Shown here piece after piece: positions 2,604 to 20,471 of a stretch of 64,000 nucleotides of DNA. The translations under genes were made by a program, and so were the position numbers. The first letter of the stretch is position 1, and every line of letters begins with the position of its first letter. The notes below the pieces were generated by a model. The model had not been told where the DNA came from. It saw nothing but the letters and a program-made list of their open reading frames with translations, and did no database searches. The stretch is from Massilibacillus massiliensis (GTDB lineage: Bacteria; Bacillota; Negativicutes; FLKF01): positions 745,166 through 809,165 of the forward strand of contig NZ_LT575483.1 in assembly GCF_900086705.1 (NCBI RefSeq), written 5' to 3'.

Positions 2604-3047
2604 ATGAAAACAACAAACAGTAAAACAGCAGAAAGTAAAAGAAAATATGGTTCATTAACAGCTTCTGCAGATGCGAATAATGATTATGCTTCAACATCAA
2701 GCAGTTCAACAAATTCAACACAGTCCAGTATGAACCAATACGGTTCTATGACAGCTCTTCAGGATGCAAACGGAGACTATTCTAAATCGAGCAGCGCAAC
2801 GAGCTCAACACAGTCTAGCATGAACCAATATGGTTCTATGACAGCTCTTCAAGATGCAAACGGAGACTATTCCCAATCGAGCAGCTCGACGAGCTCGACG
2901 CAGGATAGTATGAACCAGTATGGTTCTATGACAGCTCTTCAAGATGCAAATGGAGATTATTCTAAATCGAATAAAACTAGCAGCAAAAGTTTTTCTAAAA
3001 AACCTAACAGCATGACTGCAGCTTATGATGCAAATCAAAAACCTTAA
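2604..3047 (+). CDS. Serine-rich 30-residue tandem repeat protein, function unknown
   Basis: I do not recognise a named family. The 147-residue protein is built from about four and a half repeats of a 30-residue unit, NQYGSMTALQDANGDYSKSS plus SATSSTQSSM. Repeats 2 to 4 are nearly identical, the first is degenerate (KYGSLTASADANNDYAS) and the last is cut short (NSMTAAYDANQ). The DANGDYS core resembles a calcium-binding loop (D-x-N-x-D), but no full EF-hand is visible. It has no signal peptide, membrane segment or cysteine, and is low in hydrophobic residues, so it is probably soluble and largely disordered. GGGAGG precedes the ATG, and a strong terminator follows the stop, so it appears to be a free-standing gene. 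A spore- or stress-associated small protein is possible but not shown. Confidence 0.8.
   Translation: MKTTNSKTAESKRKYGSLTASADANNDYASTSSSSTNSTQSSMNQYGSMTALQDANGDYSKSSSATSSTQSSMNQYGSMTALQDANGDYSQSSSSTSSTQDSMNQYGSMTALQDANGDYSKSNKTSSKSFSKKPNSMTAAYDANQKP
2733..2999 (+). repeat. Three tandem 90-bp coding repeats
   Basis: Units begin at 2733, 2823 and 2913 with AACCAATA or AACCAGTA followed by GGTTCTATGACAGCTCTTCA. They differ at few positions, so the DNA itself is recently amplified or homogenised. The period keeps the reading frame. Confidence 0.9.
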
Positions 3048-3135: not shown

Positions 3136-4212
3136 TTAGTATTCGTTGAAAATTCTTTGAATTTCTTTTAAATCATTTGTTTTTGTTAACGCAAGTGATA
3201 ATAGAATTCTAGCTTTTTGTGGATTTAACGAATCACCATTTAAAAAATGCGCATCAATATAAGATTGTTCCGCATCAATCACAGTCCCATTACCAACACG
3301 GGAACTGCGCACTATTACAACACCTTTTTGCGCAGCTTTTGCTAAGGCTGTTTCTGCATTTTTATGTATGCTTCCATTCCCAGTACCTGCGTAAATAATA
3401 CCTTTAGCTCCGGCAGCAACTGCAGCATCAACAAATATTCCATCATCATCCGCATGACCATAAATTACTTTTACATAAGGCAATGCATTTAGCTTGGTAA
3501 CATCAAATTCACTTTTTGCAGTATGTTTCCGTGTACTTTCACGATAAAAATAAGGCTTTCCATCATTTACATAGCCTAAGAAACCAAGTTCCGGCGCTTT
3601 AAATGTAGCGACATTGTTCGTATTTGTTTTCGTAACCTCACGCGCACCATTGATTTCGTCATTCATCGTAACTAGGACACCTTTACCCACTGCTTCTTTA
3701 CTGCTAGCTACACGTACAGCATTCAATAAATTCAAAGGACCATCTGCACTGATTGCTGTCGCTGGGCGCATAGCACCAACAAGAACAACAGGTTTATCAC
3801 TCTTTACAACTAAATTAAGAAAATATGCAGTTTCTTCTAAAGTGTCTGTACCATGTGTAATAACAATACCATCAACATCACGATCAGCTAATACTTCATT
3901 AACTCTTTTGCTCAATGTTAGCCAAACATCATTTGACATGTCTTTACTATCAAGCTTACAAACTTGTTCCCCTGAAACATTTGCATACTCTTTCATCTGA
4001 GGCACAGCATCAATTAACGTTTGAATTCCAATTGCACCAGCTTTGTACCCAGTCATTTGTGTGTTAGAGCTTGCACTCCCTGCAATCGTCCCACCAGTAG
4101 CCAATATTTTGATGTTCGGTAAATTATTTTTTTCCGCCGCAAACACACTTTGTGCACCAAGTAAAACCATACAAAGAACTGTAAAAACAATCATCATCTG
4201 TCTTTTAAACAA
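3136..4212 (-). CDS. ansB: Type II (exported) L-asparaginase
   Basis: Hydrolyses L-asparagine to aspartate and ammonia outside the cytoplasm. A signal peptide is visible (FKRQMMIVFTVLCMVLLGA, cleavage near SVFAA). The mature enzyme shows the first catalytic-threonine motif ILATGGTIAGSA and the second motif GIVITHGTDTLEETAYF. Length of 358 residues matches AnsB. The start is set at TTG 4212 because AGGAGG lies 9 bases upstream and the resulting leader is an ideal signal peptide; an ATG at 4239 would place the Shine-Dalgarno inside the gene. It lies beside a dicarboxylate carrier transcribed in the same direction and a divergent two-component system, suggesting asparagine or aspartate catabolism, possibly ending in fumarate respiration. 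Confidence 0.93.
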   Translation of the reverse strand: MFKRQMMIVFTVLCMVLLGAQSVFAAEKNNLPNIKILATGGTIAGSASSNTQMTGYKAGAIGIQTLIDAVPQMKEYANVSGEQVCKLDSKDMSNDVWLTLSKRVNEVLADRDVDGIVITHGTDTLEETAYFLNLVVKSDKPVVLVGAMRPATAISADGPLNLLNAVRVASSKEAVGKGVLVTMNDEINGAREVTKTNTNNVATFKAPELGFLGYVNDGKPYFYRESTRKHTAKSEFDVTKLNALPYVKVIYGHADDDGIFVDAAVAAGAKGIIYAGTGNGSIHKNAETALAKAAQKGVVIVRSSRVGNGTVIDAEQSYIDAHFLNGDSLNPQKARILLSLALTKTNDLKEIQRIFNEY

Positions 4213-4355
4213 AATATCCCGCCTCCTCAATACATTCATAACTGTATTTACAATAAAACAACTTTGTTATTTTTATTAAATACCATTTGATTCTATAGGC
4301 AGCAATCTTCTGCATCAGATTACTGCCCGCATATGCAACTAGAAAATTTACAAAT

Positions 4356-5762
4356 TTAGAAGAAACCAAGTGCACTCATCCAAGGAAGACCAACGACCAT
4401 CCACACAATTAGATGAAGCGTTGTAACAATAAATCCAATTTTCCACCATTCACCTTGCGCCATATAATTTGCCCCAAAGAAGATTGGAGTTACACCACAG
4501 CCATAATGTGTCAACATAGAACAACTGTTAGCAAGTGTACCATAAAGAATTGCCACGCCTAAAGCAGGTGCACCTGCTGCAACCAAAATTGATGCAAAAG
4601 CAGCGAACAATGCCATAATATGTGCTGTATTACTAGCCAATCCATAATGCACATAAGTATACACTACAGACAGTACAATGAGCATTACCAACCATGAAGA
4701 ACCAGCCATTTGCGCACCAATCAGCTTCGCAAACCAGCTCATCAACTCAAGTTTGGATAAAAATGCTGCCATATTGACCAAAACACCCATCCATACTAAT
4801 ACATCCCAAGCACCTTTTTGATTTAAAACATCTTCCCAATCGAGAATTCTTGTAACGAGCATTGCAGAAAGACCAAGCAATGCTACAAAGGCCGAGTCAA
4901 TTTTATGAATACTGCCTGTTGCCCATAAAATTAAAGCAACAAGGAAAATAACACTTAAGATTTTTTCTGCTAAACTCATTGGTCCCATTGCAGCTAATTC
5001 ACGATTTGCCATTTCTTTTGTTTCTGGCGTTTCTTTTAACTCTGGATTGATCAATTTGTAAAGCAACCAAGGCGTTGCGATTGAAAGAATAATTCCAGGA
5101 ACGATACAAGCCATAAACCAAGACATCCAAGTAAGTTCTAAACCAAACATATCTTTAGTTAAAGTAACAACAACCGCGTTATTCGACGCACCTGTTAAGA
5201 ATATACAAGCAGATGTAATAACTGCACAGTAAGAGCTAAAGATTAGAAAAGCACCCGTACGTTCTCTTGCTGAACCAGGTTCAGAACCGATTGCAGAGCA
5301 AATGCTTCTAACAATTGGATAAACGATGCCGCCGCCACGCGCTGTATTGGATGGCGTAAAAGGCGCAACGATAAAATCTGTTGCAGAAAGTACGTAAGCG
5401 ACACTTAATGTGCTGCCACCGAATTTACTTAATAAAGCAAAAGCAATCCGTTTTCCAAGTCCAGTTTTAATAAAACCTTCCGCGAACATAAATGCCGAAA
5501 CGATCAACCAAATCGTACCGTTACTAAAACCAGCCAATGCCTCACTTGGTTTTAATACATTTAAAAATACAAGCATTGTACATGAAATCAATGATACTGC
5601 ACCAATCGACAAAGGTTGTAAAATAAAAGCTGCAATCGTCGCTACGAATATTGCCAACAAATGCCAAGCTTCTGGCTTCACACCTTCCGGTATTGGACAA
5701 AACCAAATGATCATACCGATTAGTACACATAATAACCCTTTTCCTAATTTGCCATTCACCAT
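4356..5762 (-). CDS. DASS-family anion:Na+ symporter or antiporter (dicarboxylate carrier)
   Basis: This 468-residue inner-membrane protein has a dozen or so hydrophobic segments and the duplicated SNT-type signatures of the divalent anion:sodium symporter family: FTPSNTARGGG in the first half and GLASNTAHIMAL in the second, plus GASNNAVVV. Closest recognisable relatives are CitT, TtdT and 2-oxoglutarate/malate translocators, which exchange C4-C6 di- and tricarboxylates. AGGAGGAATAT precedes the ATG. It is upstream of asparaginase on the same strand (gap 143 bases), so it may import aspartate or a C4-dicarboxylate, or export succinate in exchange. Substrate is inferred only. Confidence 0.9.
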   Translation of the reverse strand: MVNGKLGKGLLCVLIGMIIWFCPIPEGVKPEAWHLLAIFVATIAAFILQPLSIGAVSLISCTMLVFLNVLKPSEALAGFSNGTIWLIVSAFMFAEGFIKTGLGKRIAFALLSKFGGSTLSVAYVLSATDFIVAPFTPSNTARGGGIVYPIVRSICSAIGSEPGSARERTGAFLIFSSYCAVITSACIFLTGASNNAVVVTLTKDMFGLELTWMSWFMACIVPGIILSIATPWLLYKLINPELKETPETKEMANRELAAMGPMSLAEKILSVIFLVALILWATGSIHKIDSAFVALLGLSAMLVTRILDWEDVLNQKGAWDVLVWMGVLVNMAAFLSKLELMSWFAKLIGAQMAGSSWLVMLIVLSVVYTYVHYGLASNTAHIMALFAAFASILVAAGAPALGVAILYGTLANSCSMLTHYGCGVTPIFFGANYMAQGEWWKIGFIVTTLHLIVWMVVGLPWMSALGFF

Positions 5763-5939
5763 ATATTCCTCCTAAAATATAAAAATAATTTCTATATGAT
5801 TTACAAATTAAGTGTACTAATCTAACTACATAATCCGACAAAATCCTAAAAAATAATATTCTGACTATTTTTTTTTTTTATTTTAGTATTACTTTTCTAT
5901 ATACAATATAAAATATTTATATATGGATAAAAATAAATG

Positions 5940-5967
5940 TGGAAATATTCCAAATTCATGATATAAT
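5940..5967 (+). promoter_or_regulatory. Candidate promoter and operator of the two-component genes
   Basis: TGGAAATATTCCA (5940-5952) is a perfect palindrome lying where a -35 element would be, 9 bases before TATAAT (5962-5967). The divergent DASS gene starts 177 bases to the left, so the site could serve both directions. Confidence 0.4.
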
Positions 5968-6036
5968 CTAAATTAATTATTGTATACATTATACAGAGTT
6001 GTGTCATAAGTCTTATATATCATGGTAAGGAGCTTT

Positions 6037-7326
6037 ATGAAAACAAATCAAAATATTTATATTTTTATCTTAATGCTCATATTGGTACCACTCGCCGGTG
6101 AGCCAAAAATACATCCTTTCAGCGGTGAGCTAAGTTCATTTCGAGTTAGTTTTGGCTCTCCTATTTTTCTTTTATTTTTGCTTTGGATTCGCAATACTTC
6201 ATTTATATTTTCTGGCTTTTGTGTCGGATTATCTGTAACCGGGTTTCGTATACTTTTAGATTTATTTGCTTATGATGCATCTTTTTCTTCCAGTATTTTA
6301 CTTCGCGGTCCAACTTTTTTTTACTATCTAACCTATGCGACTTTTTTTCATCTTCCTAAAGGCGATACGTTATATAGTAAATCGATACAGATTGCCGGCT
6401 GGTCAATTCTTGCAGAATTTGCAGCTAGTATTGTTGAACTTTCATTAACAAATATTTTTTCAGCAATGGATTGGGCAATTACTTTAGATGTCATTACAAA
6501 AATAATCATGATTGCAATTATTCGTTGCTTTTTTATTCTTAGTTTCTTTTTTCTACTACAATTACATCAATCCGAAACAAAAGCAATTCAGGAACATAAG
6601 CAAAATAAACGTATGCTTCTATTAATTTCAAGCTTATATGAGGAAGTTATTCAGTTAAATAAATCGCAAAAAAATGCAGAAACTGTTACTAGAAACTGTT
6701 ATCAACTCTATGAAAAACTAAAAAATAAGGACTATATAATTGATAGAGATCAATTTTCTCTGGAACTCCTCAGTATCGCAGGACAAGTTCATGAAATAAA
6801 AAAAGATAATCAACGCATCTATGCTGGTTTGACACAATTAACAACAAATCGAAGATTAGACGATTATATGACCGTTGCCGAACTCGGCGATATCATCGTA
6901 CAAACAAACAAAAAATATGCACGATCATTAAAGAAAGAAATTAATTTTTCATTAGCGGTTGATCCTTTTATTCATAAGTTGCATGTATATACTATACTGT
7001 CCTTAGTAAATAATCTCGTTGCGAATGCTGTTGAAGCAATAGAATCTGTTGGCAAGATTGAAATTAAATTTTCTAAAATAAACACGTTGCTCGAAATTCA
7101 AGTTTCAGATAATGGGATTGGCATTCCCCAAAACAAAGTTAAATTACTATTTAAGCCTGGTTATACAACGAAATTTGACAGCCAAGGCCGACCATCTACA
7201 GGCGTAGGTTTACCTTATGTAAAACATTTAACCAATGAATTGGAAGGCACCATCCACTTAGATATTGAAACTCCAAATACAACTATTTTTTATTTAACAC
7301 TCCCACTCAAAAATTTGGAAGGATGA
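6037..7326 (+). CDS. Sensor histidine kinase, GlnK (YcbA)-like
   Basis: A 429-residue membrane kinase. The first 180 residues hold about six hydrophobic segments and little periplasmic sequence, so it probably senses within or at the membrane. A coiled segment (about 175-225) leads to an unusual SpoOB-type phospho-acceptor helix, AGQVHEIKKDNQRIYAGL, with the acceptor His near 252. The HATPase domain follows with NLVANAVEAIE (N box), SDNGIGIP (G1) and STGVGLPYV (G2). This organisation is that of Bacillus GlnK, the partner of GlnL. Start 6037 is chosen for AAGGAG just upstream; the ATG at 6022 has no ribosome-binding site. The response regulator starts 6 bases after its stop. Confidence 0.88.
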   Translation: MKTNQNIYIFILMLILVPLAGEPKIHPFSGELSSFRVSFGSPIFLLFLLWIRNTSFIFSGFCVGLSVTGFRILLDLFAYDASFSSSILLRGPTFFYYLTYATFFHLPKGDTLYSKSIQIAGWSILAEFAASIVELSLTNIFSAMDWAITLDVITKIIMIAIIRCFFILSFFFLLQLHQSETKAIQEHKQNKRMLLLISSLYEEVIQLNKSQKNAETVTRNCYQLYEKLKNKDYIIDRDQFSLELLSIAGQVHEIKKDNQRIYAGLTQLTTNRRLDDYMTVAELGDIIVQTNKKYARSLKKEINFSLAVDPFIHKLHVYTILSLVNNLVANAVEAIESVGKIEIKFSKINTLLEIQVSDNGIGIPQNKVKLLFKPGYTTKFDSQGRPSTGVGLPYVKHLTNELEGTIHLDIETPNTTIFYLTLPLKNLEG

Positions 7327-7332
7327 AAAATT

Positions 7333-8256
7333 ATGCGTTTTTTTCTAATTGATGATGATGAAGTAATTCGTTCTATGCTTACAGAAATTATCGAAGATTA
7401 TGATTTAGGGAAAGTAGTGGGTGAAGCCGAAAATGGCTCCACAATTGATAATCAATTACTCGACGTAAAGAATATTGACATTTTAATTATTGATATGCTC
7501 ATGCCAATTCGTGACGGCATTCAAACAGTAAAGGCAATCAAAAATTGCTTTAACGGAAAAATCATTATGCTGTCTCAGGTTGAAAATAAAGAACTAATCG
7601 GTAAAGCCTACGCTTTAGGCGTCGATAATTATATAACAAAACCAATCAACCGGAATGAAGTCGTCAGTGTAATAAAAAATGTAACCGAACATATGAAGTT
7701 ACGCAAATTAATAAACAATATTGAAAGCAGCTTAAATATTGCTTTACGCCCTGAAAAGCAAAAAAATCCTCCTATTTCCGGGGAAATGACCGCACAAAAC
7801 AAATTGACTTCAACGACTGAAATTTTACTAAGTGAAATGGGAATCGCAGGCGAAAAAGGCTCTAAAGATTTATTAAACATTATGCAATTTTTAGAAAAAC
7901 ATGAACTGGAGCACAAAGACAGTCATGACTTTCCATCATTAAAATCGATATTTCAAAGTATTGCTGTTCCAAGAGTTGGAGATGATAACGCTTTGAATAT
8001 TCAAAAAGAATGCAAAGCCATTGAACAACGGCTGCGAAGAACTGTATTTCAAGCCCTACTCAATCTTGCTTCAATGGGAGTCGTTGATTATGCCAATCCA
8101 AAATTCGAAGACTACGCTGCTAAATTTTTTGACTTTGCTGAGGTAAGAAAGGTTATGCTGCTTCTAGAAAATGAACAAAAACCAATCATGTCACAAGCAC
8201 ATATCAATATAAAAAAATTCATTAAAGTTCTCTTCATCGAAGCAAAAAAGGCCTGA
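7333..8256 (+). CDS. Response regulator with YcbB/GlnL-type output domain
   Basis: A 307-residue regulator. The receiver domain (residues 1-120) shows the acidic pocket LIDDDE, the phospho-acceptor Asp54 in ILIIDMLMP, and the conserved Lys in NYITKP. The C-terminal part (about 185-305), with KECKAIEQRLRRTVFQALLN and the DFAEVRKVMLLL segment, matches the YcbB domain of GlnL, which in Bacillus activates glutaminase and glutamine transport genes. By analogy this pair may sense an amino acid amide or dicarboxylate and control the neighbouring asparaginase and DASS carrier; that link is inference from position. A terminator hairpin overlaps the end of the gene. Confidence 0.9.
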   Translation: MRFFLIDDDEVIRSMLTEIIEDYDLGKVVGEAENGSTIDNQLLDVKNIDILIIDMLMPIRDGIQTVKAIKNCFNGKIIMLSQVENKELIGKAYALGVDNYITKPINRNEVVSVIKNVTEHMKLRKLINNIESSLNIALRPEKQKNPPISGEMTAQNKLTSTTEILLSEMGIAGEKGSKDLLNIMQFLEKHELEHKDSHDFPSLKSIFQSIAVPRVGDDNALNIQKECKAIEQRLRRTVFQALLNLASMGVVDYANPKFEDYAAKFFDFAEVRKVMLLLENEQKPIMSQAHINIKKFIKVLFIEAKKA

Positions 8257-8277
8257 CAAAATGTCAGGTCTTTTTTT
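8250..8277 (+). terminator. Terminator of the two-component operon
   Basis: CCTGACA, AAA, TGTCAGG hairpin followed by a run of T; the stop codon of the response regulator lies in its left arm. Confidence 0.85.
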
Positions 8278-8373
8278 GTGTAGACAAACTATCTTCGTAC
8301 TAGTTTATAAGTCGTACGGATTTGGTTATTTTCTAAATTATCAACATAAATATGTTATTTTGCTACAGTCTAA

Positions 8374-8400
8374 GGCCTAACAAAATGTTAGGCCATTTTT
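8374..8400 (+). terminator. Second, sequence-related terminator hairpin
   Basis: GGCCTAACA, AAA, TGTTAGGCC followed by ATTTTT. It differs from the hairpin at 8250 by compensating changes (CTGACA to CTAACA and its complement) and may also block transcription from the convergent gene weakly. Confidence 0.6.
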
Positions 8401-8413
8401 CAATGATTAGCTA

Positions 8414-9109
8414 TTATTTTTTCAATCGATAACCAGATCCCCATACCGTTTCAATATATTCTGGATTGCTTGTATCTTTTTCTATTTTTTCTCGTAATCT
8501 TTTGATATGTACCGTAACGGTAGATACATCTCCGATCGCTTCCATCCCCCAAAGCTCATCAAATAAAAACTCTTTTGAAAAAACTTTATTTGGATTTGAA
8601 GCCAAATAATATAATAATTCAAATTCTTTATTGGGTAATTTTATTTCTTTCTTTCCAATATACACTCTTAAGTCTTCCGGAAATATACGAAGCGCACCAA
8701 TTATAATTTTATCTTTTATTCCTGTGCTATTCTTAATTTTGGTCAATCTTTTATATCTATTTAAATGCGCTTTTACCCTTGCCACTAATTCATTTGGACT
8801 AAACGGCTTTACAATATAATCATCTGCACCTGTGCCTAAACCACGAATTTTATCTATATCTTCTTTTTTAGCCGTAACCATTAAAATAGGAATTTCTTTC
8901 ACTTTACGTATCTCTTCACATACTTCAAAACCAGTTTTTTTTGGTAACATCAAATCTAAAATGATTAAATCAAAATTCTCATTAATTGCTCGATCAAGAC
9001 CACTTTCCCCATCATTGGCAATCACAACATCAAAATTATTTAATTTTAAATAGTCTCTTTCCAGTTCTGCAATATTACAATTATCTTCAATAATAAGAAT
9101 ACGTTCCAT
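8414..9109 (-). CDS. OmpR-family response regulator
   Basis: A 231-residue DNA-binding regulator. The receiver domain (1-115) has the acidic pair IIEDN, acceptor Asp52 in LIILDLMLP, and the Lys in DYIVKPFSP. The winged-helix domain (about 135-230) contains LPNKEFELLYYLA and VTVHIKRLREKIE, ending in the conserved VWGSGYRLKK. It lies 34 bases after the kinase at 9144-10604 and is probably cotranscribed with it. The order kinase then regulator is the reverse of the commoner arrangement. No target transporter gene sits next to it. Confidence 0.95.
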   Translation of the reverse strand: MERILIIEDNCNIAELERDYLKLNNFDVVIANDGESGLDRAINENFDLIILDLMLPKKTGFEVCEEIRKVKEIPILMVTAKKEDIDKIRGLGTGADDYIVKPFSPNELVARVKAHLNRYKRLTKIKNSTGIKDKIIIGALRIFPEDLRVYIGKKEIKLPNKEFELLYYLASNPNKVFSKEFLFDELWGMEAIGDVSTVTVHIKRLREKIEKDTSNPEYIETVWGSGYRLKK

Positions 9110-9143
9110 TTTGACACACCATTTCTTTTAAACTTAAAAATAC

Positions 9144-10604
9144 TCACTGTTCTTTCGTTCTATCCAAGGGTATTTTAATAAATATATTTAAACCAGGATC
9201 ATTGGTTGCATAGATACTTCCACCGTGGGCACGAATAATTTGTTGCGAAATTGCCAGTCCTAATCCGCTCCCATCACAAGAATTACATCTTGAAGGATCG
9301 CCTCGATAAAAGCTTGTAAAGATTTGATCCAACTCTGATGCACTGACACCACTACCATTATCAGAGATCTTTAGTACGATTTGCTGCTCTTCTACAAATA
9401 AAACTATGTTTGCTTCGACTTTATCCCGCACCTTATACTTATAACAATTATCTAAAATATTCATTAACACTCGGTTAAATTCTTCACTGTCTATCTTAGC
9501 TTCCATCTCAGCATTACTATACTGCTCATAATTGATCGTAACACCTTTATCCGCAAATTCATTTTTTACTTTATTATAAAATTCTGTTATGTATACAGCA
9601 AAATCAAGTGTTTTAAATTCGAATGGAAAATTACCCATATTTAATTTAGAAAATAAAAATAATTTATCTACCAGACGATCCATATCACAAGCCCTATTAT
9701 ATATGATATCTATGTATTGCGCTCTTTTTTCCTGCGTATCGGCGACACCATCACGCAAACCTTCAACATAGCCTTTAATAATCGTAAGCGGTGTTCTAAT
9801 GTCATGTGAAATCCCTGCAATCAAAATATTACGATCATTTTCATATTTTTCTTCTACTTCTTTTGAATATTTTAGACGCATTCTCATATCATTAAAATCA
9901 TTACAAACTTGGCTAAACTCATCATCACCAGCACATTTCATATCAAATTCAAGGTTACCTCGCTTAATTGCTCTTGATCCACGCCTCAATTGCTCCAAAG
10001 GTTCGTTGATTCTTTTCGCTAAACTAGAAGATAACATCACATTCACAAACCAAATAATGAGCAAACCTACTAAAATAACCAAACTCATATAACTACGAAA
10101 AAAATAACTTAACTTTTTTTCAATACTGCTTACATCGCGTGATTGCACCGCAATCAAATGAAATTGCTTTTTATCTTTTTGAAACATACATTTTACAATG
10201 TTATTTGCCCGTAATATCAGAACCACTGAATTATCGGCAAACACAACGGGTGCTTTTTCATCACCTAAGGCATACCAATCATCACTTGTTAAATTGGACA
10301 AGATATATTCACCATCACACATCAACAGCATATGATAGCCCTTTGCCAAAACTTTATCTTGCAATTCATTTTGTAAACTACAAAATTCTCCTGTATCTTC
10401 TGCTTTTAACATAGCTTGTGAATATTCTTTTAAATCAAATTCTACTTGGTGAACCATTTTTTTGTCTTCATCTGGATTATTAAATGCATTACGATTCGAT
10501 TCATTATAAAGTAGATTCGCACCACCAGCGACAAATAAAATAACAACAAAAGGAATAATAAACATAATCAAATTTGATAAAATCAACCGATGACGAATCA
10601 ACAT
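9144..10604 (-). CDS. HAMP-domain sensor histidine kinase
   Basis: A 486-residue class I kinase. It has an N-terminal membrane helix (about 8-32), an extracytoplasmic sensor region (33-168), a second helix (about 170-192), and a HAMP linker with RINEPLEQLRRGS. The H box is GISHDIRTPLTIIKGYVEGL with acceptor His267. The ATPase domain follows with NILDNCYKY, ISDNGSGV and GSGLGLAISQQI. The sensor region is not recognised. The Shine-Dalgarno is weak (AAAGGG). It starts 19 bases after the PucR-type regulator stop, so regulator, kinase and response regulator may share a transcript; the signal is unknown. Confidence 0.93.
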   Translation of the reverse strand: MLIRHRLILSNLIMFIIPFVVILFVAGGANLLYNESNRNAFNNPDEDKKMVHQVEFDLKEYSQAMLKAEDTGEFCSLQNELQDKVLAKGYHMLLMCDGEYILSNLTSDDWYALGDEKAPVVFADNSVVLILRANNIVKCMFQKDKKQFHLIAVQSRDVSSIEKKLSYFFRSYMSLVILVGLLIIWFVNVMLSSSLAKRINEPLEQLRRGSRAIKRGNLEFDMKCAGDDEFSQVCNDFNDMRMRLKYSKEVEEKYENDRNILIAGISHDIRTPLTIIKGYVEGLRDGVADTQEKRAQYIDIIYNRACDMDRLVDKLFLFSKLNMGNFPFEFKTLDFAVYITEFYNKVKNEFADKGVTINYEQYSNAEMEAKIDSEEFNRVLMNILDNCYKYKVRDKVEANIVLFVEEQQIVLKISDNGSGVSASELDQIFTSFYRGDPSRCNSCDGSGLGLAISQQIIRAHGGSIYATNDPGLNIFIKIPLDRTKEQ

Positions 10605-10623
10605 AAAGATACCCTTTCACCAC

Positions 10624-11913
10624 TTACCACAATGCTTTACTTTGTTTTCTATTATTGCAATTTGCTTTATAATTTTCAACAATATTTCCTAAATAAACAG
10701 GTTTTAAAAAACCTAGCTCATTTAGTATATCACCAACTCTAATTGCAATAAACAAGTTAACCCTTATATCGGATAATGACAGATCCTTATCTAACAATTG
10801 TTCAATTTTACTATAACGATACCGCAGTGTATTGACATGAACAAATAATTGCTCTGCGGATAATTTCCAATTGAAATTGCAATCTAGCAGCACTCTAAGT
10901 GTTATTAACAATTCTGTATCAAAATCATGATCATGTTCTAACAATTTTCCAATTGCGTTCATACAAAAGCTCTTAATCTGTTCCATATCCTGCAAAAAAA
11001 TATGCGTAAATATCCCTAAATTCATAAAAGCTTGTACAAAGCTCCGCTCTCCTTTTATCAAATTAAATACCATCGCAATTCTTGCTTCATTATAACTCTT
11101 ATAGAGTTCATTTAGTTTATATACCCCACCAATACCAATTGCAACATTTAAATGATACTCTTCTTCAAAAGCTTTTTTCCAGTTCTTATATTTTTTTATG
11201 TTTAACCAATCTCTATCTAATTCTAATACTTCATCTTCAAAAATAGCGGACAAGATCATTACGTAATAGCCCTTCCAATAAATTGGAACTGCATATTCCA
11301 TATTATTTTTATTAGCATATTGGAACAAATTTGATTTCAGTTTATATGCATCGAAAGCTCGCTCTACTGTGTCAATTTTAATCATTAAAATTGCATATCG
11401 ATTGTTACTATCCAACTCGATTCCAGCTCGTTCAGCAATTTCTTCAACATGTGCATTTTTCTTGATACAGACTGCTTTTAAAAATTCTTTTTGATACTGT
11501 ATGATATTGTTTTTTAACTTTGATTCAGTTTTCATATAATGTTTAATTGCTAAATGAACCTCACTAAGATTCATAATAATGGATACGATATTTTCTTGTA
11601 CAACATTTTTAATTATGACAAATGCTCTTGTCTCTTCCACTCCTATTGAATAAATCAAAATATTCTCATTTTTTTCATAATAATATTGCCTTTCTCTAAG
11701 CTTAGAAAGATCACTTAGCAATGCTTCTATTTCCTCAATTACACTCATAGATTTTTCTGGATAATGTGCATATCCCTGATGATCTGCAATGATAATTGTT
11801 TTTTTAATCTTTCTACCAATGTACGTACCAACGTAATCTAAGCCTTTTTCAATAAGATTTTCTAATAAATTCACACTAGCATCAGCATCAGACATTTTGA
11901 TAACACCACTCAT
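10624..11913 (-). CDS. PucR/CdaR-type transcriptional regulator (module 1)
   Basis: A 429-residue protein whose C-terminal 60 residues form the PucR-type helix-turn-helix: LLDCNFNWKLSAEQLFVHVN then TLRYRYSKIEQLL. The middle is GGDEF-like as in CdaR regulators (about 165-300). The N-terminal 140 residues, with KKTIIIADHQGYAHYPEKS, are a probable ligand-sensing domain that I do not recognise. It is a paralogue of the protein at 15668-16969 over its whole length, ending in the same KQSKALW. It lies directly downstream of SLH porin 1 and flavoprotein 1, so it probably regulates that module. No clear Shine-Dalgarno precedes 11913; an alternative ATG is at 11895. Confidence 0.87.
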   Translation of the reverse strand: MSGVIKMSDADASVNLLENLIEKGLDYVGTYIGRKIKKTIIIADHQGYAHYPEKSMSVIEEIEALLSDLSKLRERQYYYEKNENILIYSIGVEETRAFVIIKNVVQENIVSIIMNLSEVHLAIKHYMKTESKLKNNIIQYQKEFLKAVCIKKNAHVEEIAERAGIELDSNNRYAILMIKIDTVERAFDAYKLKSNLFQYANKNNMEYAVPIYWKGYYVMILSAIFEDEVLELDRDWLNIKKYKNWKKAFEEEYHLNVAIGIGGVYKLNELYKSYNEARIAMVFNLIKGERSFVQAFMNLGIFTHIFLQDMEQIKSFCMNAIGKLLEHDHDFDTELLITLRVLLDCNFNWKLSAEQLFVHVNTLRYRYSKIEQLLDKDLSLSDIRVNLFIAIRVGDILNELGFLKPVYLGNIVENYKANCNNRKQSKALW

Positions 11914-11979
11914 AAAAAATTTTTATAATATAATAACACATATTCATAAACATATTATCAATAAATGAAACATGAATTA

Positions 11980-12001
11980 ATTATGAACAAATTATGAACA
12001 A
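11980..12001. repeat. Two adjacent 11-bp direct repeats
   Basis: ATTATGAACAA occurs twice head-to-tail (11980-11990 and 11991-12001) upstream of the module 1 regulator. It could be a regulator binding site. Confidence 0.5.
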
Positions 12002-12004
12002 ATA

Positions 12005-12042
12005 AAAAATAGTTCAAATCTTATAGATCTGAACTATTTAAA
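12005..12042 (-). terminator. Terminator after SLH porin 1
   Basis: On the minus strand AATAGTTCA, with an inner AGATCTATAAGATTT loop-stem, pairs with TGAACTATT and is followed by TTTTATT. Confidence 0.8.
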
Positions 12043-12044
12043 GA

Positions 12045-13490
12045 TTAATACCAAAATTCAAATTGCGCTTTAAATGTCTTGTCCAATTTTTTGGAAGTTA
12101 GATTTGTTAAACTTTGATCCTTAATTCTAAAATCTTGATATTCTAATGTCATAATGACATTTTTGCGCACTACATTTTGATATACAAAGCTCCACACATT
12201 TACATTGTCTGTCCCATGCGTAAATACACTGTATGGATTGTTTGGAACATAGGCAACCCCAATCGTATTAAATCCACCAACGCCATGCGGAACGGCTCCA
12301 GCATCGATTGATCGATAGCCAATCATCCATGCATCTGTCCCCGACTTACTTTTATCAACTAAATTTACTGCATTGTAATAAACTTTTGGGCCCACGCTAT
12401 TACTAAGTTGAACAGCCCATCCTTTAGGGTTGTCAGATAGTCCGTTTCCCGGTGTTACACCATCTAATTTCGTCACAATATAATCCGACATCAAAGTATA
12501 CTTACCAAATTTCCAATCGAAAGCAAGGCTGGCACCTTTCGCACTATCGTAAGCCTTACCACCAATCCCATCAATATTTAGATCCCCCGTGCCATTTTTA
12601 GCTGCATTTGCACTAGCATCTGACCAATAGTAACCTAACCCCACATTCATTTTATCGTTTAATTTTTGCGTAAAATCAACAGTAGTAATTTGCTGTGCAT
12701 TGCCAAGTGAACCATCTGCATAATCAGCATTGCTATTCACTTCAGGATCACCGGTAAATAGCTTAAGTTTTGTATCCCCGAAATTCTTTTCCAGCAAAAT
12801 ACCATCGACATTATTTGGTTTTCCTATTAATCCGTGTCCGATGGTATCCATTGGACTTCTGCCCACACGAATTTTATCAATACCAAAACTATCTTTTATG
12901 ATTATATTGGCAATATCCAAGCGTACCTCGGAACCTTTAGAACCATCTTTTTGCCCAGACATATCGCCAAATTTATCTTCGACGACTAATCTTCCCGTAT
13001 AACTCATTTTTTCATTAACATTTCCTTTAACACTGATGCGATGTCTAAAGTCAAATTTATCTGAACCCTTTAAACTTTTCCCGGTATTGGAACTATCATG
13101 CAAATAGCGTACCCGACTTTCGCCCTCAATCCAAGTATTCGTTTTCTTTTCCACCACTGTTACACGTTTCCCAAGCCGATTCAACTCGCCGGCAAATTCT
13201 GCTGATAGTTTATCAATGATCGCTTTATCGTGCTCATCGGCGGTTTCAAATTGATCAATGGCTTTTGCTACAACCATACTAAATTCATATCGCGTTAGAG
13301 GACGCTCGCCTTTAAATTCATGATCACTATAGCCTTGAAGAATACCATCTTTCGCTAGCTCCTGTACAGCCTGATATGCCCAATGCTCTTTTGGCACATC
13401 ACGAAATGAATCTTCTGGTGCAGCAAAAGTTACTCCAAACGACCCGATAATAAGCATCGCCACGATTGAGGCTGTCAAATTTTTATTCAT
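12045..13490 (-). CDS. SLH-domain outer-membrane porin, OmpM-like (module 1)
   Basis: A 481-residue exported protein. A signal peptide (MNKNLTASIVAMLIIGSFG, cleavage after TFA-A) is followed by one S-layer-homology domain (about 28-75: FRDVPKEHWAYQAVQEL, then GYSDHEFKGERPLTRYEF). A helical segment (IIDKLSAEFAGELNRLGKRV) and a long beta-strand-rich region end in a terminal aromatic, EFWY. This is the architecture of Negativicute OmpM porins, which tie the outer membrane to peptidoglycan and let small solutes through. Start 13490 is preferred to 13496 because AGGAG lies 9 bases upstream. It follows flavoprotein 1 by 114 bases, so it may admit that enzyme's substrate (inference). Confidence 0.9.
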   Translation of the reverse strand: MNKNLTASIVAMLIIGSFGVTFAAPEDSFRDVPKEHWAYQAVQELAKDGILQGYSDHEFKGERPLTRYEFSMVVAKAIDQFETADEHDKAIIDKLSAEFAGELNRLGKRVTVVEKKTNTWIEGESRVRYLHDSSNTGKSLKGSDKFDFRHRISVKGNVNEKMSYTGRLVVEDKFGDMSGQKDGSKGSEVRLDIANIIIKDSFGIDKIRVGRSPMDTIGHGLIGKPNNVDGILLEKNFGDTKLKLFTGDPEVNSNADYADGSLGNAQQITTVDFTQKLNDKMNVGLGYYWSDASANAAKNGTGDLNIDGIGGKAYDSAKGASLAFDWKFGKYTLMSDYIVTKLDGVTPGNGLSDNPKGWAVQLSNSVGPKVYYNAVNLVDKSKSGTDAWMIGYRSIDAGAVPHGVGGFNTIGVAYVPNNPYSVFTHGTDNVNVWSFVYQNVVRKNVIMTLEYQDFRIKDQSLTNLTSKKLDKTFKAQFEFWY

Positions 13491-13604
13491 CCTCATATTC
13501 TCCTCAATACTTTATTTACCTACAAATAAATTCCTTACATAATTCACAATATTAAGATGTTTCGCATACGGTCTTATCCTTGTTTATCTGTAGCTACTTT
13601 ACAT

Positions 13605-15323
13605 TTAACTGAGATTCAGTACATTTTTACCGGATAAATATCCAAATGTATAAGCACGTCCATGGCTATTTCCAGGAACAAAATTAGGGTAATCTGCACC
13701 AAAGAAACTGCCCGAGTTATTCCCGGCTGCATAAAGTCCTTGAATAATGTCTTTCTCTTTATCCAAAACTTGCATTTTGTCATTAATTTGTAACCCGCCG
13801 AGCGTAACAAGCATTGATGTTCCGATATTAGCGGCATAGAAAGGAGGCTTATCTATTGTTGTCATGAAAAGATTTGGTTTTCCAAAATCTTCATCAACGC
13901 CTTTTTTCGCTAACTCATTATACCGGGCTATTGTTTTCTTCAAAGTTTCTACAGGAAGTTTTGTTAATTCTGCCAACTGCTCGATCGTATCCGCTTTTTT
14001 TATCAGCCCTTTTTGAATATATTCTTCAATAACTTTTGGATTATGATGCTCTACTGTTAACATTTCTTTACAAGCAGTTTGTCTAAACTTAGGGCCTTCT
14101 TCCGGCCACTTAGAATCCCAGATATTCCACTTGCTATGACCCGGCTGCTGACGAACCGCATTTGAAAGATAACTAAACGGCAGATCTTCATTACCATAGC
14201 GTTCACCTTTTAAATTAACACCAAGCCACGGCTGTCGAACCAAAGAATCTGGATTTACTTTTGGATCATCAACAAATGCTTTATCAAAATACATTGCGCA
14301 ATGTGGACCTTCATCAATCGCCGCGCCTATCCATATGCCCATTTTTTGACCATCACCAGTATTGTATTTGCCCGGATAAGAAATCTTATGAATTGCCTCC
14401 GAAGTAGGCACGTAATACTTTAACATTTCTTCATCATGTCCATAATCACCGGCACAAAGGATAACACCCTTTTTTGCATTAAATTTAATATACTTACCAT
14501 CTTCTGCTTTTCCGATAACGCCCTGAACTCTGCCTTTATTTTCTACTCTAATTAACTGTTCTGCCGGTGTTTTATAACGAATCTCAACACCTAATTTCTC
14601 AGCAGTTGTAAGCAACGTATATGCTGTTGCTATCGTTGCTTTACCACCATATATACCTTTTTGTATTTTAGTTGCTGCTTCTTCTGGCGGTTCAAGTACG
14701 AAGGTCAAGCTTGGGAATGTTGGCAGCGTAGATACTGGAGCAACCAATTCCTCCTCAGTATGAATGTGCTTAATCGTACATCCAGCTTTAAGTGCAAGAT
14801 CCAGCAGCCAGTCATTTACTTTACCGCTATTGTTTACAAATTCTTGCACTACTTTTTGATCTGGCTTATAACTGCCAAATTTCATTATTTCTCGTGTAAC
14901 ATCCAAAGGATTGATCGTGATCCCGGCTTCTTTCTGTACCTTTGCATTAATCGCACCATAATCATAACTACGGAAATTTACACTTTGTGTTTTTTCTATC
15001 AATGTAACTTTTGCGCCTTCCTGCGCTGCTGAAATTGCAGCACAAAGCCCAGCCATGCCTGCACCGACTACGACCACATCAGCTTCAACTGTTTCTTTAA
15101 TGTCACTGTCCTTAATCGGTGTTGGCGTCTTTAAAAAACTAGGTTCTTGACCTGCAACCAATTTATTTCCTTCATCCGTCTTCTCTTCTCCAGCTTTTCT
15201 CCCCTTGCCGCAAGCAGTTAATAAAAAGCTTGATCCAACAACACCAGCAACCGACAATGCACTGTTTTTCAAAAACCCTCTGCGAGATATTCCACTTTTT
15301 CGTACTTCAAGATCTTTATCCAT
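13605..15323 (-). CDS. Tat-exported FAD-dependent reductase lipoprotein (module 1)
   Basis: A 572-residue flavoprotein of the fumarate reductase/succinate dehydrogenase superfamily. A twin-arginine signal (SRRGFLK, residues 13-19) leads to a lipobox LTAC with Cys38, so it is predicted to be a Tat-exported lipoprotein. The FAD motif is VVVVGAGMAGLCAAISAAQ (about 83-101) and the C-terminal FAD-binding end is GLYAAGNNSGSFFGADYP then HGRAYTFGYLSGKN. GERYGNED corresponds to the proton-donor Arg loop of fumarate reductases, but the usual HHTMGG is LVTLGG here. There is no CxxCH haem motif, so it needs an external electron donor. Start 15323 has GGAGG 8 bases upstream. Substrate unknown: an enoate or enone acceptor is likely. 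Confidence 0.92.
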   Translation of the reverse strand: MDKDLEVRKSGISRRGFLKNSALSVAGVVGSSFLLTACGKGRKAGEEKTDEGNKLVAGQEPSFLKTPTPIKDSDIKETVEADVVVVGAGMAGLCAAISAAQEGAKVTLIEKTQSVNFRSYDYGAINAKVQKEAGITINPLDVTREIMKFGSYKPDQKVVQEFVNNSGKVNDWLLDLALKAGCTIKHIHTEEELVAPVSTLPTFPSLTFVLEPPEEAATKIQKGIYGGKATIATAYTLLTTAEKLGVEIRYKTPAEQLIRVENKGRVQGVIGKAEDGKYIKFNAKKGVILCAGDYGHDEEMLKYYVPTSEAIHKISYPGKYNTGDGQKMGIWIGAAIDEGPHCAMYFDKAFVDDPKVNPDSLVRQPWLGVNLKGERYGNEDLPFSYLSNAVRQQPGHSKWNIWDSKWPEEGPKFRQTACKEMLTVEHHNPKVIEEYIQKGLIKKADTIEQLAELTKLPVETLKKTIARYNELAKKGVDEDFGKPNLFMTTIDKPPFYAANIGTSMLVTLGGLQINDKMQVLDKEKDIIQGLYAAGNNSGSFFGADYPNFVPGNSHGRAYTFGYLSGKNVLNLS

Positions 15324-15378
15324 GTATGGTACCTCCAACATTAAAATATTTTATCTTCATAATTTCTAAAGCAACTAC

Positions 15379-15450
15379 ATTTTAGCACCTGCATAAAAGT
15401 TCAGTCATCGACGAAAGCTGTAAATCTTTTGTCTATGTATTGTAGATAGA
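15379..15450 (-). promoter_or_regulatory. Candidate promoter and upstream box of flavoprotein 1
   Basis: An extended -10 TGCTAAAAT is read on the minus strand (hexamer 15379-15384). About 50-65 bases further upstream lies TCTATGTATTGTAGATAGA (15432-15450), an interrupted inverted repeat containing TGTAGATA, the same octamer found twice, in opposite orientation, upstream of flavoprotein 2. Confidence 0.4.
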
Positions 15451-15469
15451 ATCCATAAAAATAAATAAA

Positions 15470-15507
15470 AACAATGATATGATTAATGCCGCAATCATAC
15501 CATTGTT
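15470..15507. terminator. Long terminator hairpin between the two modules
   Basis: On the minus strand AACAATGGTATGATT pairs with AATCATATCATTGTT across GCGGCATT, followed by TTTATTT. It separates module 2 from the module 1 promoter region. Confidence 0.8.
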
Positions 15508-15573
15508 CTTTTCTACAAATTTTGACTTATATTATCGTGTAATTCATATAAATAAAAATTTAATCATAATAAA

Positions 15574-15616
15574 AAACCTGTCCAAAAAGAGTCTAGGCAC
15601 TCCATGAACAAGTTTT
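15574..15616 (-). terminator. Terminator after regulator 2
   Basis: On the minus strand AAACTTGTTC pairs, with G-U pairs, with GGACAGGTTT and runs into T residues. It lies about 50 bases after the regulator 2 stop. Confidence 0.6.
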
Positions 15617-15667
15617 AATTTCCACTTTACGAAAAACATCTTGCAGTAATTTTTCTTACCAAAGGGT

Positions 15668-16969
15668 TCACCATAAGGCTTTACTTTGTTTTTTTATATT
15701 ATTCACCTTGGAAATATCTAATGTATTACCAACAAAGATTGGCTGCAAGAAACCAAGTTCATGAAGAATATCCGCTACACGGATTGCGATAAATAAATTA
15801 CTTCTTTCTTGCGCTAAGGACAAATCAATCTGTAAAATTTGCTCAATTTTCTCATAACGATAACGCAGTGTATTTACGTGAACAAATAATATCTCAGACG
15901 CCAATTTCCAGTTAAAGTTACAGTCCAATAGTGTTCTGAGCGTTACGAGCAATTCTCCATCAAAATCATGATCATATTCCAAAATTTTCTCTATCGTTTT
16001 CATGCAAAAATTCTTTAATTTATCAATATCTTGTGAAAACAATTCAGCAAATACACCTAAATCAACAAATCGCTGCACAAAGCTAACTTCACCTTTTAAC
16101 AGATGAAAATGCATTGCAATTCTTGCTTCATTATAACTTTTATGTAATTCACTTAATTTATATACTCCGCCAATACTTACTGCAGCTTTTACATTATATT
16201 TTTCTTCAAAAGCATTTTTCCAGATGATTGAGTTTTTTGCATTAGGCCAATCAGATTTTATTTCTAACGTATCGTCATCATACACGCCCGATAAAATTGA
16301 AACAAAAAACCCGCGCCAATAAATAGGGGGTATGAAGAAAAGATTATTTTGCTTCGCATATTCGAAAATATTTGCCTTCAGATTATGATAATTAACCTGT
16401 TTATTATCTTCATCGATCTTTATAAGAAGAACTGCATAATATTGATTTAAATTTAACTGAATACCCGTTTTTTCTATAATATACCGAATATTAATACTAT
16501 TCTTAACGAAAAGATTCTCTAAAATTTCTGTTTGAAATGATTGTATTTTGGTTTTGAGCTTATTTTCATAATTGATATACATCTTCAAGGCTAATTTAGC
16601 TTCATTCAAAGTTAGTACGATAGAAGGAATGTTTTCATGCTTTACATTTTTAATAATAACAACTGCTTTAAGCTCCTCTTGCCCTACCGGGTAAATCAAA
16701 GTCGCTTCTGATTTCTTATAATAGTACTGATTCTCTTCTAAATCGGGTATATCAAAAAATAATTCTATGATTTCATCTACTATAACTTGGGATTTTTCTG
16801 GATAATGCATATATCCATAATTATCAACTATCAAAATAGTTTTTTTAGTTGTCTGGGCAATATAAGAAACGACCGCACCTAATCCATGATTAACTAATTT
16901 TTTTAATAAACTTTCACTATCTCCAATATTCGCCATAAAAATTTTCTTCCCATCATCTTGATTCTGCAT
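15668..16969 (-). CDS. PucR/CdaR-type transcriptional regulator (module 2)
   Basis: A 433-residue paralogue of the 10624-11913 regulator with the same layout: an N-terminal sensor-like part containing TKKTILIVDNYGYMHYPEKS, a CdaR-type middle domain (GVYKLSELHKSYNEARIAM), and a C-terminal PucR HTH (NWKLASEILFVHVNTLRYRY), ending KQSKALW. The HTH segments of the two are nearly identical, whereas the N-terminal sensor parts diverge, which suggests related DNA sites but different ligands. Its own promoter is visible at 16981-17010. A second possible start (MANIGDSES) lies 33 bases in. It sits downstream of porin 2 behind a terminator. Confidence 0.87.
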   Translation of the reverse strand: MQNQDDGKKIFMANIGDSESLLKKLVNHGLGAVVSYIAQTTKKTILIVDNYGYMHYPEKSQVIVDEIIELFFDIPDLEENQYYYKKSEATLIYPVGQEELKAVVIIKNVKHENIPSIVLTLNEAKLALKMYINYENKLKTKIQSFQTEILENLFVKNSINIRYIIEKTGIQLNLNQYYAVLLIKIDEDNKQVNYHNLKANIFEYAKQNNLFFIPPIYWRGFFVSILSGVYDDDTLEIKSDWPNAKNSIIWKNAFEEKYNVKAAVSIGGVYKLSELHKSYNEARIAMHFHLLKGEVSFVQRFVDLGVFAELFSQDIDKLKNFCMKTIEKILEYDHDFDGELLVTLRTLLDCNFNWKLASEILFVHVNTLRYRYEKIEQILQIDLSLAQERSNLFIAIRVADILHELGFLQPIFVGNTLDISKVNNIKKQSKALW

Positions 16970-16980
16970 AAACTTACATC

Positions 16981-17010
16981 ATTATATCATGTGCAATTCT
17001 TTTTTATCAA
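16981..17010 (-). promoter_or_regulatory. Promoter of regulator 2
   Basis: On the minus strand TTGATA (17005-17010), an 18-base spacer, and TATAAT (16981-16986), ending 11 bases before the ATG, so the leader is very short. Confidence 0.6.
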
Positions 17011-17017
17011 TTAAAAA

Positions 17018-17038
17018 GAACGCATTTAAAATGCGTTC
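17018..17038 (-). terminator. Terminator after SLH porin 2
   Basis: GAACGCATTT and AAATGCGTTC form a near-perfect hairpin followed on the minus strand by TTTTTAATT. Confidence 0.85.
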
Positions 17039-17056
17039 CAGTTTGCAATATATGCT

Positions 17057-18277: not shown

Positions 18278-18310
18278 TAAATGATCTCTCCAATTCACTT
18301 TTATCAATTC

Positions 18311-20035: not shown

Positions 20036-20105
20036 ACAAAATTCTCCCCTACTCTAGAATAAATCATAAGTCCATAATTTATAAATTCGTCCTCATTCGA
20101 CAATT

Positions 20106-20181
20106 GTTATATTATCATCCAAATAAATCAACAGTCACTAAAGATATCTACAAAACGAATTAGCATTTACTGTAGATATCT
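20106..20181 (-). promoter_or_regulatory. Inverted repeat and candidate promoter of flavoprotein 2
   Basis: AGATATCTACA (20142-20152) and TGTAGATATCT (20171-20181) form a perfect 11-bp inverted repeat with an 18-base spacer. It sits upstream of a possible -10 (TATAAC on the minus strand, 20106-20111). The position fits an activator site; the same TGTAGATA octamer recurs upstream of flavoprotein 1. Confidence 0.5.
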
Positions 20182-20310
20182 ATAATCGATATTAATTTTA
20201 TCATAATTTTTAAATCAGAATTTCTAAATTTATATTGTTTAATTATTAAAATTTATTGTTGATAAAAATCTTTAGATAAAGAATTTTTTTGCAAGTTTTC
20301 TAAATTCTAT

Positions 20311-20369
20311 TTGTATATATTTCTTCAATTATATATACAAAAAGTTTTGTCGAATTATTGTATATATAG
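20311..20369. promoter_or_regulatory. TTGTATATAT inverted repeat upstream of the cytochrome gene
   Basis: TTGTATATAT (20311-20320) and ATATATACAA (20331-20340) form a perfect inverted repeat with a 10-base spacer. A third copy, ATTGTATATATA, begins at 20357. The cytochrome start is about 100 bases downstream. Confidence 0.4.
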
Positions 20370-20471
20370 CTAAAGCAAATAAACGTAATTAATTATAAAA
20401 TAATTAGGCAGAGTAAATTTTTTTGTCTGCATTCTGTAAGAAAATCTATTTAGAAAGGAAGAGATGCTCCT

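Follow-up and report, generated by a model that had tools for sequence, protein, structure and literature searches.

The 64,000-nt stretch of Massilibacillus massiliensis DNA analysed here (contig NZ_LT575483.1, positions 745,166 to 809,165; hereafter the window) contains, at 3136–8256, a histidine kinase and a response regulator of the GlnK/GlnL (YcbA/YcbB) type next to the genes for a DASS-family carrier and an exported asparaginase. The locus belongs to a known family, in which its set of targets is new, and the pair is probably a two-component switch for acidic amino acids (asparagine or aspartate) that activates the carrier and asparaginase genes. The gene identities, the conserved neighbourhood, a conserved array at the carrier gene and the predicted fold of the output domain were computed in this work. 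Together they offer an operator that can be tested and a list of targets for a family of response regulators whose main known case is one glutamine switch, would tie the output domain of that family to Spo0A if the predicted model holds, and suggest a way in which asparagine and aspartate may be sensed and used by anaerobic Negativicutes.

Table 1. Features of the kinase-regulator and carrier-asparaginase locus, in window positions.
Feature	Position	Strand	Details
Exported type II L-asparaginase, ansB (asparagine to aspartate and ammonia)	3136–4239	minus	367 aa; PF00710/PF17763, TIGR00520
DASS-family dicarboxylate carrier	4356–5762	minus	468 aa; PF00939 468.9 bits, TIGR00785 399.2 bits
Predicted operator, three 10-bp-spaced units TTTTAGGA TTTTGTCGGA TTATGTAG	5826–5851	minus	reads towards carrier, 63 bp before carrier start codon
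GlnK-type membrane histidine kinase	6022–7326	plus	434 aa; HATPase_c PF02518 65 bits
GlnL-type response regulator, REC (Asp54) and YcbB DNA-binding domain	7333–8256	plus	307 aa; PF00072 and PF08664
Terminator-like hairpin with T-run	8252–8277	plus	overlaps 3' end of regulator gene; read directly from the sequence

A GlnK/GlnL-type pair divergent from carrier and asparaginase genes

A first-pass annotation of the window had named a GlnK/GlnL-type pair, an asparaginase and a DASS carrier here and had described the pair as divergent from the other two genes; the four open reading frames, their family profiles and their strands bear this out, the carrier and asparaginase genes lying on the minus strand and the pair on the plus strand. 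The regulator matched PF08664 with 150.9 bits (cut-off 27.4) and PF00072 above its cut-off, the combination of REC and YcbB domains expected of the family, and its Asp54 and Lys103 were invariant in 13 aligned sequences. PF08664 had one match location in the 4.0-Mb genome; of the 14 genomes used as controls, that of B. subtilis alone has it. A HisKA match was absent from the Pfam scan of the kinase. Its H-box, HEIKKDNQR at residue 257, has His257, Lys260, Lys261, Gln264 and Arg265 invariant across 64 aligned kinases, and given AAGGAG at 6027–6032 (by eye), the kinase probably starts at the ATG at 6037. At the place of the hairpin behind the regulator gene, the terminator scan listed the opposite strand only (8268–8252).

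In a profile search the asparaginase scored 478.5 bits against TIGR00520 (cut-off 314.3), placing it among type II L-asparaginases. The N-terminus resembles a signal peptide, and export, like the motifs GGTIAG and HGTDT, was judged by eye only. Two SNT motifs, also found by eye, are present in the carrier, whose only listed solved relatives are the chloroplast proteins DiT1 and DiT2.1 and the chains 6wtw and 6wu1. All four are taken by us to be exchangers, 6wu1 presumably being LaINDY, and on this assumption they agree with the link to dicarboxylate exchange that the first-pass annotation had drawn.

These identities bear on the possibility that, as in B. subtilis, the pair is a switch for glutamine or glutamate, with AnsB serving as a glutaminase-asparaginase and the carrier exchanging glutamate or 2-oxoglutarate in the manner of DiT proteins. 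The kinase and regulator are of the same family, the window kinase being 39–42% identical to the kinases of three loci with a linked glutaminase, and among solved structures the carrier matches the DiT proteins best. Solved glutaminase-asparaginases are likewise related to AnsB, but among the 45 solved sequences that matched it at E ≤ 1e-50 they are the last six, whereas the top ones are named L-asparaginases. Neither a glutaminase nor an AGCS match, the targets of the glutamine-regulator subtype, was found among the nine proteins of 3136–15341 that were scanned.

Carriers recur beside regulators of this family

Relatives of the regulator were gathered in two sets. The first comprises, out of 286, the 80 named relatives most similar to the window regulator, a choice that under-samples GlnL proteins of the B. 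subtilis group; the second comprises 35 loci from the class, 14 of the window's clade and 21 of a distant regulator clade. The 80-relative set and the same-clade class loci share at least four genomes. Full-length relatives of the regulator were present in 28 of 60 genomes (the own genome and 59 of the class), 14 with a member of the window's clade and 14 more with the distant clade only (E < 1e-30). Neighbours were tallied from tblastn matches lying no more than 6.5 kb from the regulator.

A carrier was found near the regulator in 75 of the 80 named relatives (DAACS 43, AGCS 24, DASS 8), and two of the remaining five loci have a glutaminase without a matched carrier. Other neighbours in this set were the aspartase AspA (17), malic enzyme (10), glutaminase (3) and AnsB (2). 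All 14 same-clade class loci also have a carrier (DASS in 10, DAACS in 6), with AspA in eight and AnsB in one. Given these frequencies, the association of carrier and regulator is more than chance. The complete set of four genes recurs in the same order in two further genomes, a Massilibacillus sp. metagenome-assembled genome (MAG; L066) and Propionispira arboris DSM 2179 (L067), which account for both AnsB loci of the 80; the single AnsB locus of the same-clade class set is that of the same MAG. Thus the four-gene neighbourhood singled out by the first-pass annotation is conserved in full in three genomes, and its carrier link in nearly all of the relatives examined.

Within the distant clade, DAACS was near in 17 of 21 loci, and in five of 21, every one from a single family (f5), AnsB stood directly behind the regulator. 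Asparaginase has therefore become part of such a switch in two distinct clades. In one family the distant-clade regulators adjoin glutamate mutase genes (L045, L054, L055, L060–L062), another acidic-amino-acid link; MutE and the B12-binding subunit were identified in L045, and the same clusters of open reading frames recur in the other five.

A kinase match lies beside the regulator in 57 of the 80 named loci and in all 14 same-clade class loci, as expected of a family with cognate kinases. In the other 23 named loci no kinase was found within 6.5 kb by tblastn with the window kinase. At such loci (L085:3314–9339 and similar ones in Paenibacillus) the regulator faces an AGCS carrier, and in L085 a protein with an MCP-signalling domain follows the carrier. 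These YcbB regulators may be orphans or may serve a different sensor.

The main rival to an acidic-amino-acid switch is a switch for C4-dicarboxylates (fumarate, malate, succinate) comparable to DcuSR or DctSR, in which the carrier would exchange fumarate and succinate and the asparaginase would be a co-regulated supplier or a passenger. DASS carriers move C4-dicarboxylates, and the solved relatives listed are those named above, but the commonest partner of these regulators is the DAACS symporter (43/80), and in all four of the DAACS proteins from class loci that were compared GltP (glutamate/aspartate) scored above DctA, below the cut-off and with a near tie in L045 (432.6 versus 431.0 bits). 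The aspartase and malic enzyme beside the relatives' regulators also handle C4 acids; the glutaminase and asparaginase partners point instead to amino acids. AnsB is absent from 14 of the 17 distinct DASS-linked loci (the window, eight named and 10 class loci, with L031 = L066 and L040 = L112 counted once), which suits the C4-dicarboxylate explanation. On balance it is considered unlikely.

A three-unit array stands before the carrier gene

A de novo search of divergent intergenic regions (46 of 68 kept, near-copies dropped) returned a 26-base motif on the carrier strand, consisting of three TTTTGTAG-like units spaced by 10 bp. The motif reached 25.3 bits per sequence over the 46 regions with 60 seeds, compared with 10.1 (largest 10.8) in 12 dinucleotide-shuffled sets with 30 seeds, and 44 of the 46 non-redundant regions scored at least 18.6. 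The array fits the direct repeat of TTTTGT-like units at 10 bp before the target that is expected of GlnK/GlnL-type operators, the B. subtilis box being TTTTGTN4TTTTGT.

The window site scored 30.1 bits, being itself in the training set, and 0.00017 such scores are expected per 4 Mb under a first-order genome model. This conserved predicted operator lies inside 5763–6036, the interval for which the first-pass annotation had proposed binding of the regulator. An 18-base pattern written from the site gave a single exact match in the 4.0-Mb genome, by construction at the site itself, and no second match with fewer than three mismatches was found in that genome; at three mismatches there were five further matches, one of them overlapping the site, compared with two when the pattern was reversed as a control. 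The three-unit model took the place of a short two-unit pattern that, with two mismatches allowed, had given 215 matches in the same genome versus 213 for its reversed control. On the kinase strand, another conserved stretch, TTCTGACTATTTTT at 5859–5872, is shared by the window, the Massilibacillus MAG and P. arboris and may belong to the kinase promoter.

When whole loci were scanned, an array of at least 18.6 was present in 78 of the 80 named loci (misses L084 and L125), and in 74 it lay at most 450 bp upstream of the carrier or glutaminase match on the same strand, the matches in L083, L124, L133 and L145 being located elsewhere. Because 39 of the 80 loci and the window were inside the training set, their matches are partly circular; the untrained loci with a non-divergent carrier form the independent part, and in seven of these eight the array precedes the carrier (exception L083). 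All 14 same-clade class loci have the array. Only two of 21 distant-clade loci reached 18.6 with the model of the window's clade. However, a separate de novo run on distant-clade carrier promoters (10 of 16 collected, near-copies dropped) recovered the same kind of unit in nine of 10, the clear miss being L064, with 18.7 bits per sequence from 80 seeds versus 13.1–13.6 from 40 seeds in six neighbour-base-pair-shuffled sets.

The array thus tracks the carrier and not the kinase, as would be expected of the regulator's operator. The same pattern makes it very improbable that the pair and the carrier genes are side by side by mere adjacency with no regulatory link, as the array precedes the carrier in the divergent loci and in seven of the eight non-divergent ones, and a pattern search of the genome gave no other close match.

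A further array, scoring 21.9, was found elsewhere in the own genome (L160:2606–2641, C6 near 3305600), 1.3 kb upstream of aspA, where it has panD on one side and an AI-2E-like gene of the opposite strand on the other (both named by eye); 0.095 such scores are expected per genome. It looked like a regulon member at first, but, lying between convergent genes, and with no match of at least 18.6 at the 26 aspA-type loci of relatives that were scanned, it is not claimed as one.

Glutaminase-linked regulators are nested among DAACS-linked ones

A midpoint-rooted tree was built from 65 of 113 regulators, with near-copies thinned and L031, which duplicates L066, omitted. The window regulator pairs with that of the Massilibacillus MAG (100/98), and both fall in a Negativicutes group of 10 DASS-linked rows, seven with DASS and three with DASS and AnsB (100/100). 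Three glutaminase-linked regulators of Bacillaceae are nested with three DAACS-linked ones (100/98), and on either side of the deepest branch the DAACS-linked regulators outnumber every other group (29 of 51 and 11 of 14). Given this nesting among regulators linked to glutamate/aspartate-type symporters, the glutamine switch looks derived, and the Bacillus glutamine system, with which the first-pass annotation had compared the locus, is not its natural template. Acidic amino acids look like the usual business of the family, judged from these sequences and subject to sampling; any ancestral reading depends on the choice of the best 80 of 286 and on the midpoint root.

The nesting also tells against a glutamine/glutamate switch in the window. 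Glutaminase occurs in three named loci, in accordance with such a switch, and the glutamate mutase genes beside distant-clade relatives would fit it too; within the window's clade, aspartase (17/80) and malic enzyme (10/80) are nevertheless the more frequent partners compared with glutaminase (3/80), though AGCS reaches 24/80. A glutamine/glutamate switch is accordingly rated as improbable.

The YcbB domain is predicted to resemble the Spo0A effector domain

The YcbB domain, predicted alone, gave a model with a pLDDT of 95.3. Compared with the Spo0A effector domain, the model aligned to 1fc3_A (free) with Z 10.2 over 113 residues at 2.8 Å and to 1lq1_A (DNA-bound) with Z 9.8, the next chain reaching 4.0. 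On this predicted model the domain would have the same fold as the Spo0A-type DNA-binding domain. The match comes from a second-look aligner and not from Foldseek's own list. In the local hhalign alignment of YcbB and Spo0A, the recognition helix of Spo0A falls on YcbB's invariant Q-R-x-R-R (Spo0A numbering by eye), and the reversed Spo0A profile scored 9.6 versus 22.3. The model of the full-length regulator was uninformative for the output domain, as the REC domain filled the match lists.

Several results weigh against the Spo0A-like component of the proposed switch. A Z of about 10 falls below the caution line of the aligner for helical bundles (about 13) and could reflect a common arrangement, a caveat offset by the wide gap to the next chain and by the coverage of most of the domain. 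Spo0A was not in the Foldseek top 50 for the YcbB domain, and no Foldseek match reached E 0.001 or better. The hhalign alignment was weak when run locally (E 0.0049, 38 columns, probability 7%), and when run globally (E 0.12) it ended in another register that made no sense. No PF08769 (Spo0A_C) match was found in the regulator; the single place where that family occurs in the own genome, near C6:330545, is Spo0A itself. A search of PDB sequences with the YcbB domain profile returned no relative, the best hit being a nuclease at E 0.027.

The core of the Spo0A box is TGTCGAA, with contacts at G2, C4 and G5 (PMC3485338). In the core of the array unit, TGT(A/C)G, both G2 and G5 are retained and position 4 is either C or A. 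The array resembles tandem Spo0A boxes, and a Spo0A-like domain acting on tandem boxes would make a coherent mechanism. There are also differences: YcbB belongs to another Pfam family, its recognition helix would read Q-R-x-R-R rather than the S-R-V-E-R of Spo0A, and YcbB arrays as a rule comprise three units spaced by 10 bp. In PMC3353171, Spo0A and YcbB are listed as separate output-domain families.

Proposed mechanism and comparison with known systems

In the proposed switch, the membrane sensor of the kinase would respond to aspartate or asparagine outside the cell and the kinase would phosphorylate Asp54 of the regulator. The YcbB domain would then bind the three-unit array, and the bound regulator would activate, rather than repress, the carrier and ansB as one co-transcribed minus-strand unit. 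AnsB would split asparagine in the periplasm, and the carrier would import aspartate, probably against succinate or another C4-dicarboxylate. An aspartase encoded elsewhere could convert the aspartate to fumarate and ammonia, supplying nitrogen and possibly, through fumarate respiration, an electron acceptor. The genome does encode an aspartase outside the locus, 74% identical to one beside DASS in a relative, which makes the route from asparagine through aspartate to fumarate possible. A second asparaginase in the genome (L161) has no obvious signal peptide by eye. In L042 (G010:C17:65485–66873) the aspartase adjoining DASS has one in-frame TGA.

The choice of asparagine and aspartate is weakened by further observations. 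AnsB is present in only three of the 17 DASS-linked loci, so that asparagine need not be the signal. The conserved residues of the sensor are common to glutaminase-, DAACS- and DASS-linked kinases, and the sequence therefore does not tell the ligand. The aspA gene lies outside the locus with no array close in front of it, the sole one being 1.3 kb upstream behind an opposite-strand gene, and at aspA-type loci of relatives no array reached 18.6 (26 of 30 returned, with 1.5-kb flanks and many paralogs), the weaker scores being 13.7 and 17.8. Of the first-pass interpretation, the type of pair, its divergence, the conservation, the operator and the type of carrier are supported and the glutamine template is not, while aspartate or asparagine as the effector and fumarate as an electron acceptor are what we infer.

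Among known systems, B. subtilis GlnKL drives glnT in response to glutamine (PMC2743287). The window shares with the glsA-glnT locus of GlnK-GlnL (YcbA-YcbB) the type of kinase and REC-YcbB regulator, a target unit of carrier and amidase, and a direct-repeat operator at 10 bp (for B. subtilis, the box given above); it differs in having an exported asparaginase and DASS where B. subtilis has a glutaminase and AGCS. In B. cereus, the GlnKL-like pair BC1742-BC1743 adjoins BC1739-1741 (an aspartate symporter, an aspartate ammonia lyase and a third gene), so that a similar pair lies next to genes for aspartate uptake and breakdown; aspartate sensing was raised there in 2008 (PMC2358912). These partners are a symporter and an aspartase, in contrast to DASS and an exported asparaginase in the window, and the accessible text gives no operator for the pair.

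In Actinobacillus succinogenes, it has been proposed that asparagine and aspartate supply fumarate respiration through the AnsB-AspA-DcuA cluster (Asuc_0140-0142; PMC10634366). That cluster likewise combines a putative periplasmic asparaginase with an aspartate/C4-dicarboxylate exchanger feeding fumarate respiration. Unlike the window, it has a Dcu-family exchanger and aspA within the cluster, with no GlnKL-type regulator in the text seen. By analogy, a similar use of asparagine and aspartate for fumarate respiration is possible in the window organism.

Taken across the family, we give an even chance to a broader history, in which YcbB regulators have the Spo0A fold and commonly, and probably ancestrally, switch on acidic-amino-acid carriers in Firmicutes through triple 10-bp Spo0A-like boxes. 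B. subtilis GlnKL would then be derived, and the asparaginase-DASS unit would be a Negativicutes branch that joins asparagine capture to anaerobic C4-acid exchange. In a literature search that left most subscription papers out of reach, no description was found of the link between YcbB and Spo0A, of the triple array across carrier types or of an AnsB-DASS unit under such a pair. Part of the operator may already be contained in Satomura 2005 and de Been 2008.

Other features of the window

Upstream of the locus, a T-box leader at 2096–2321 on the minus strand (RF00230, 100.3 bits) precedes the genes 1486–2028 and 507–1574, which by eye resemble the acetolactate synthase small subunit and IlvC. 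A small repetitive protein with recurring SMTALQDANGDYS units is encoded at 2604–3047 on the plus strand; it has no NCBIfam match, and similar open reading frames occur in the Massilibacillus MAG (65%) and in L053 (47%). Downstream, at 10624–20993, a module is present in two tandem copies, each with a PucR-like regulator, an SLH-domain protein (porin-like by eye) and an exported FAD-binding reductase, followed by an NrfH-like multihaem cytochrome. The Pfam scan covered the first copy and the rest was assigned by eye. The module looks like one for extracytoplasmic respiration of an organic acceptor.

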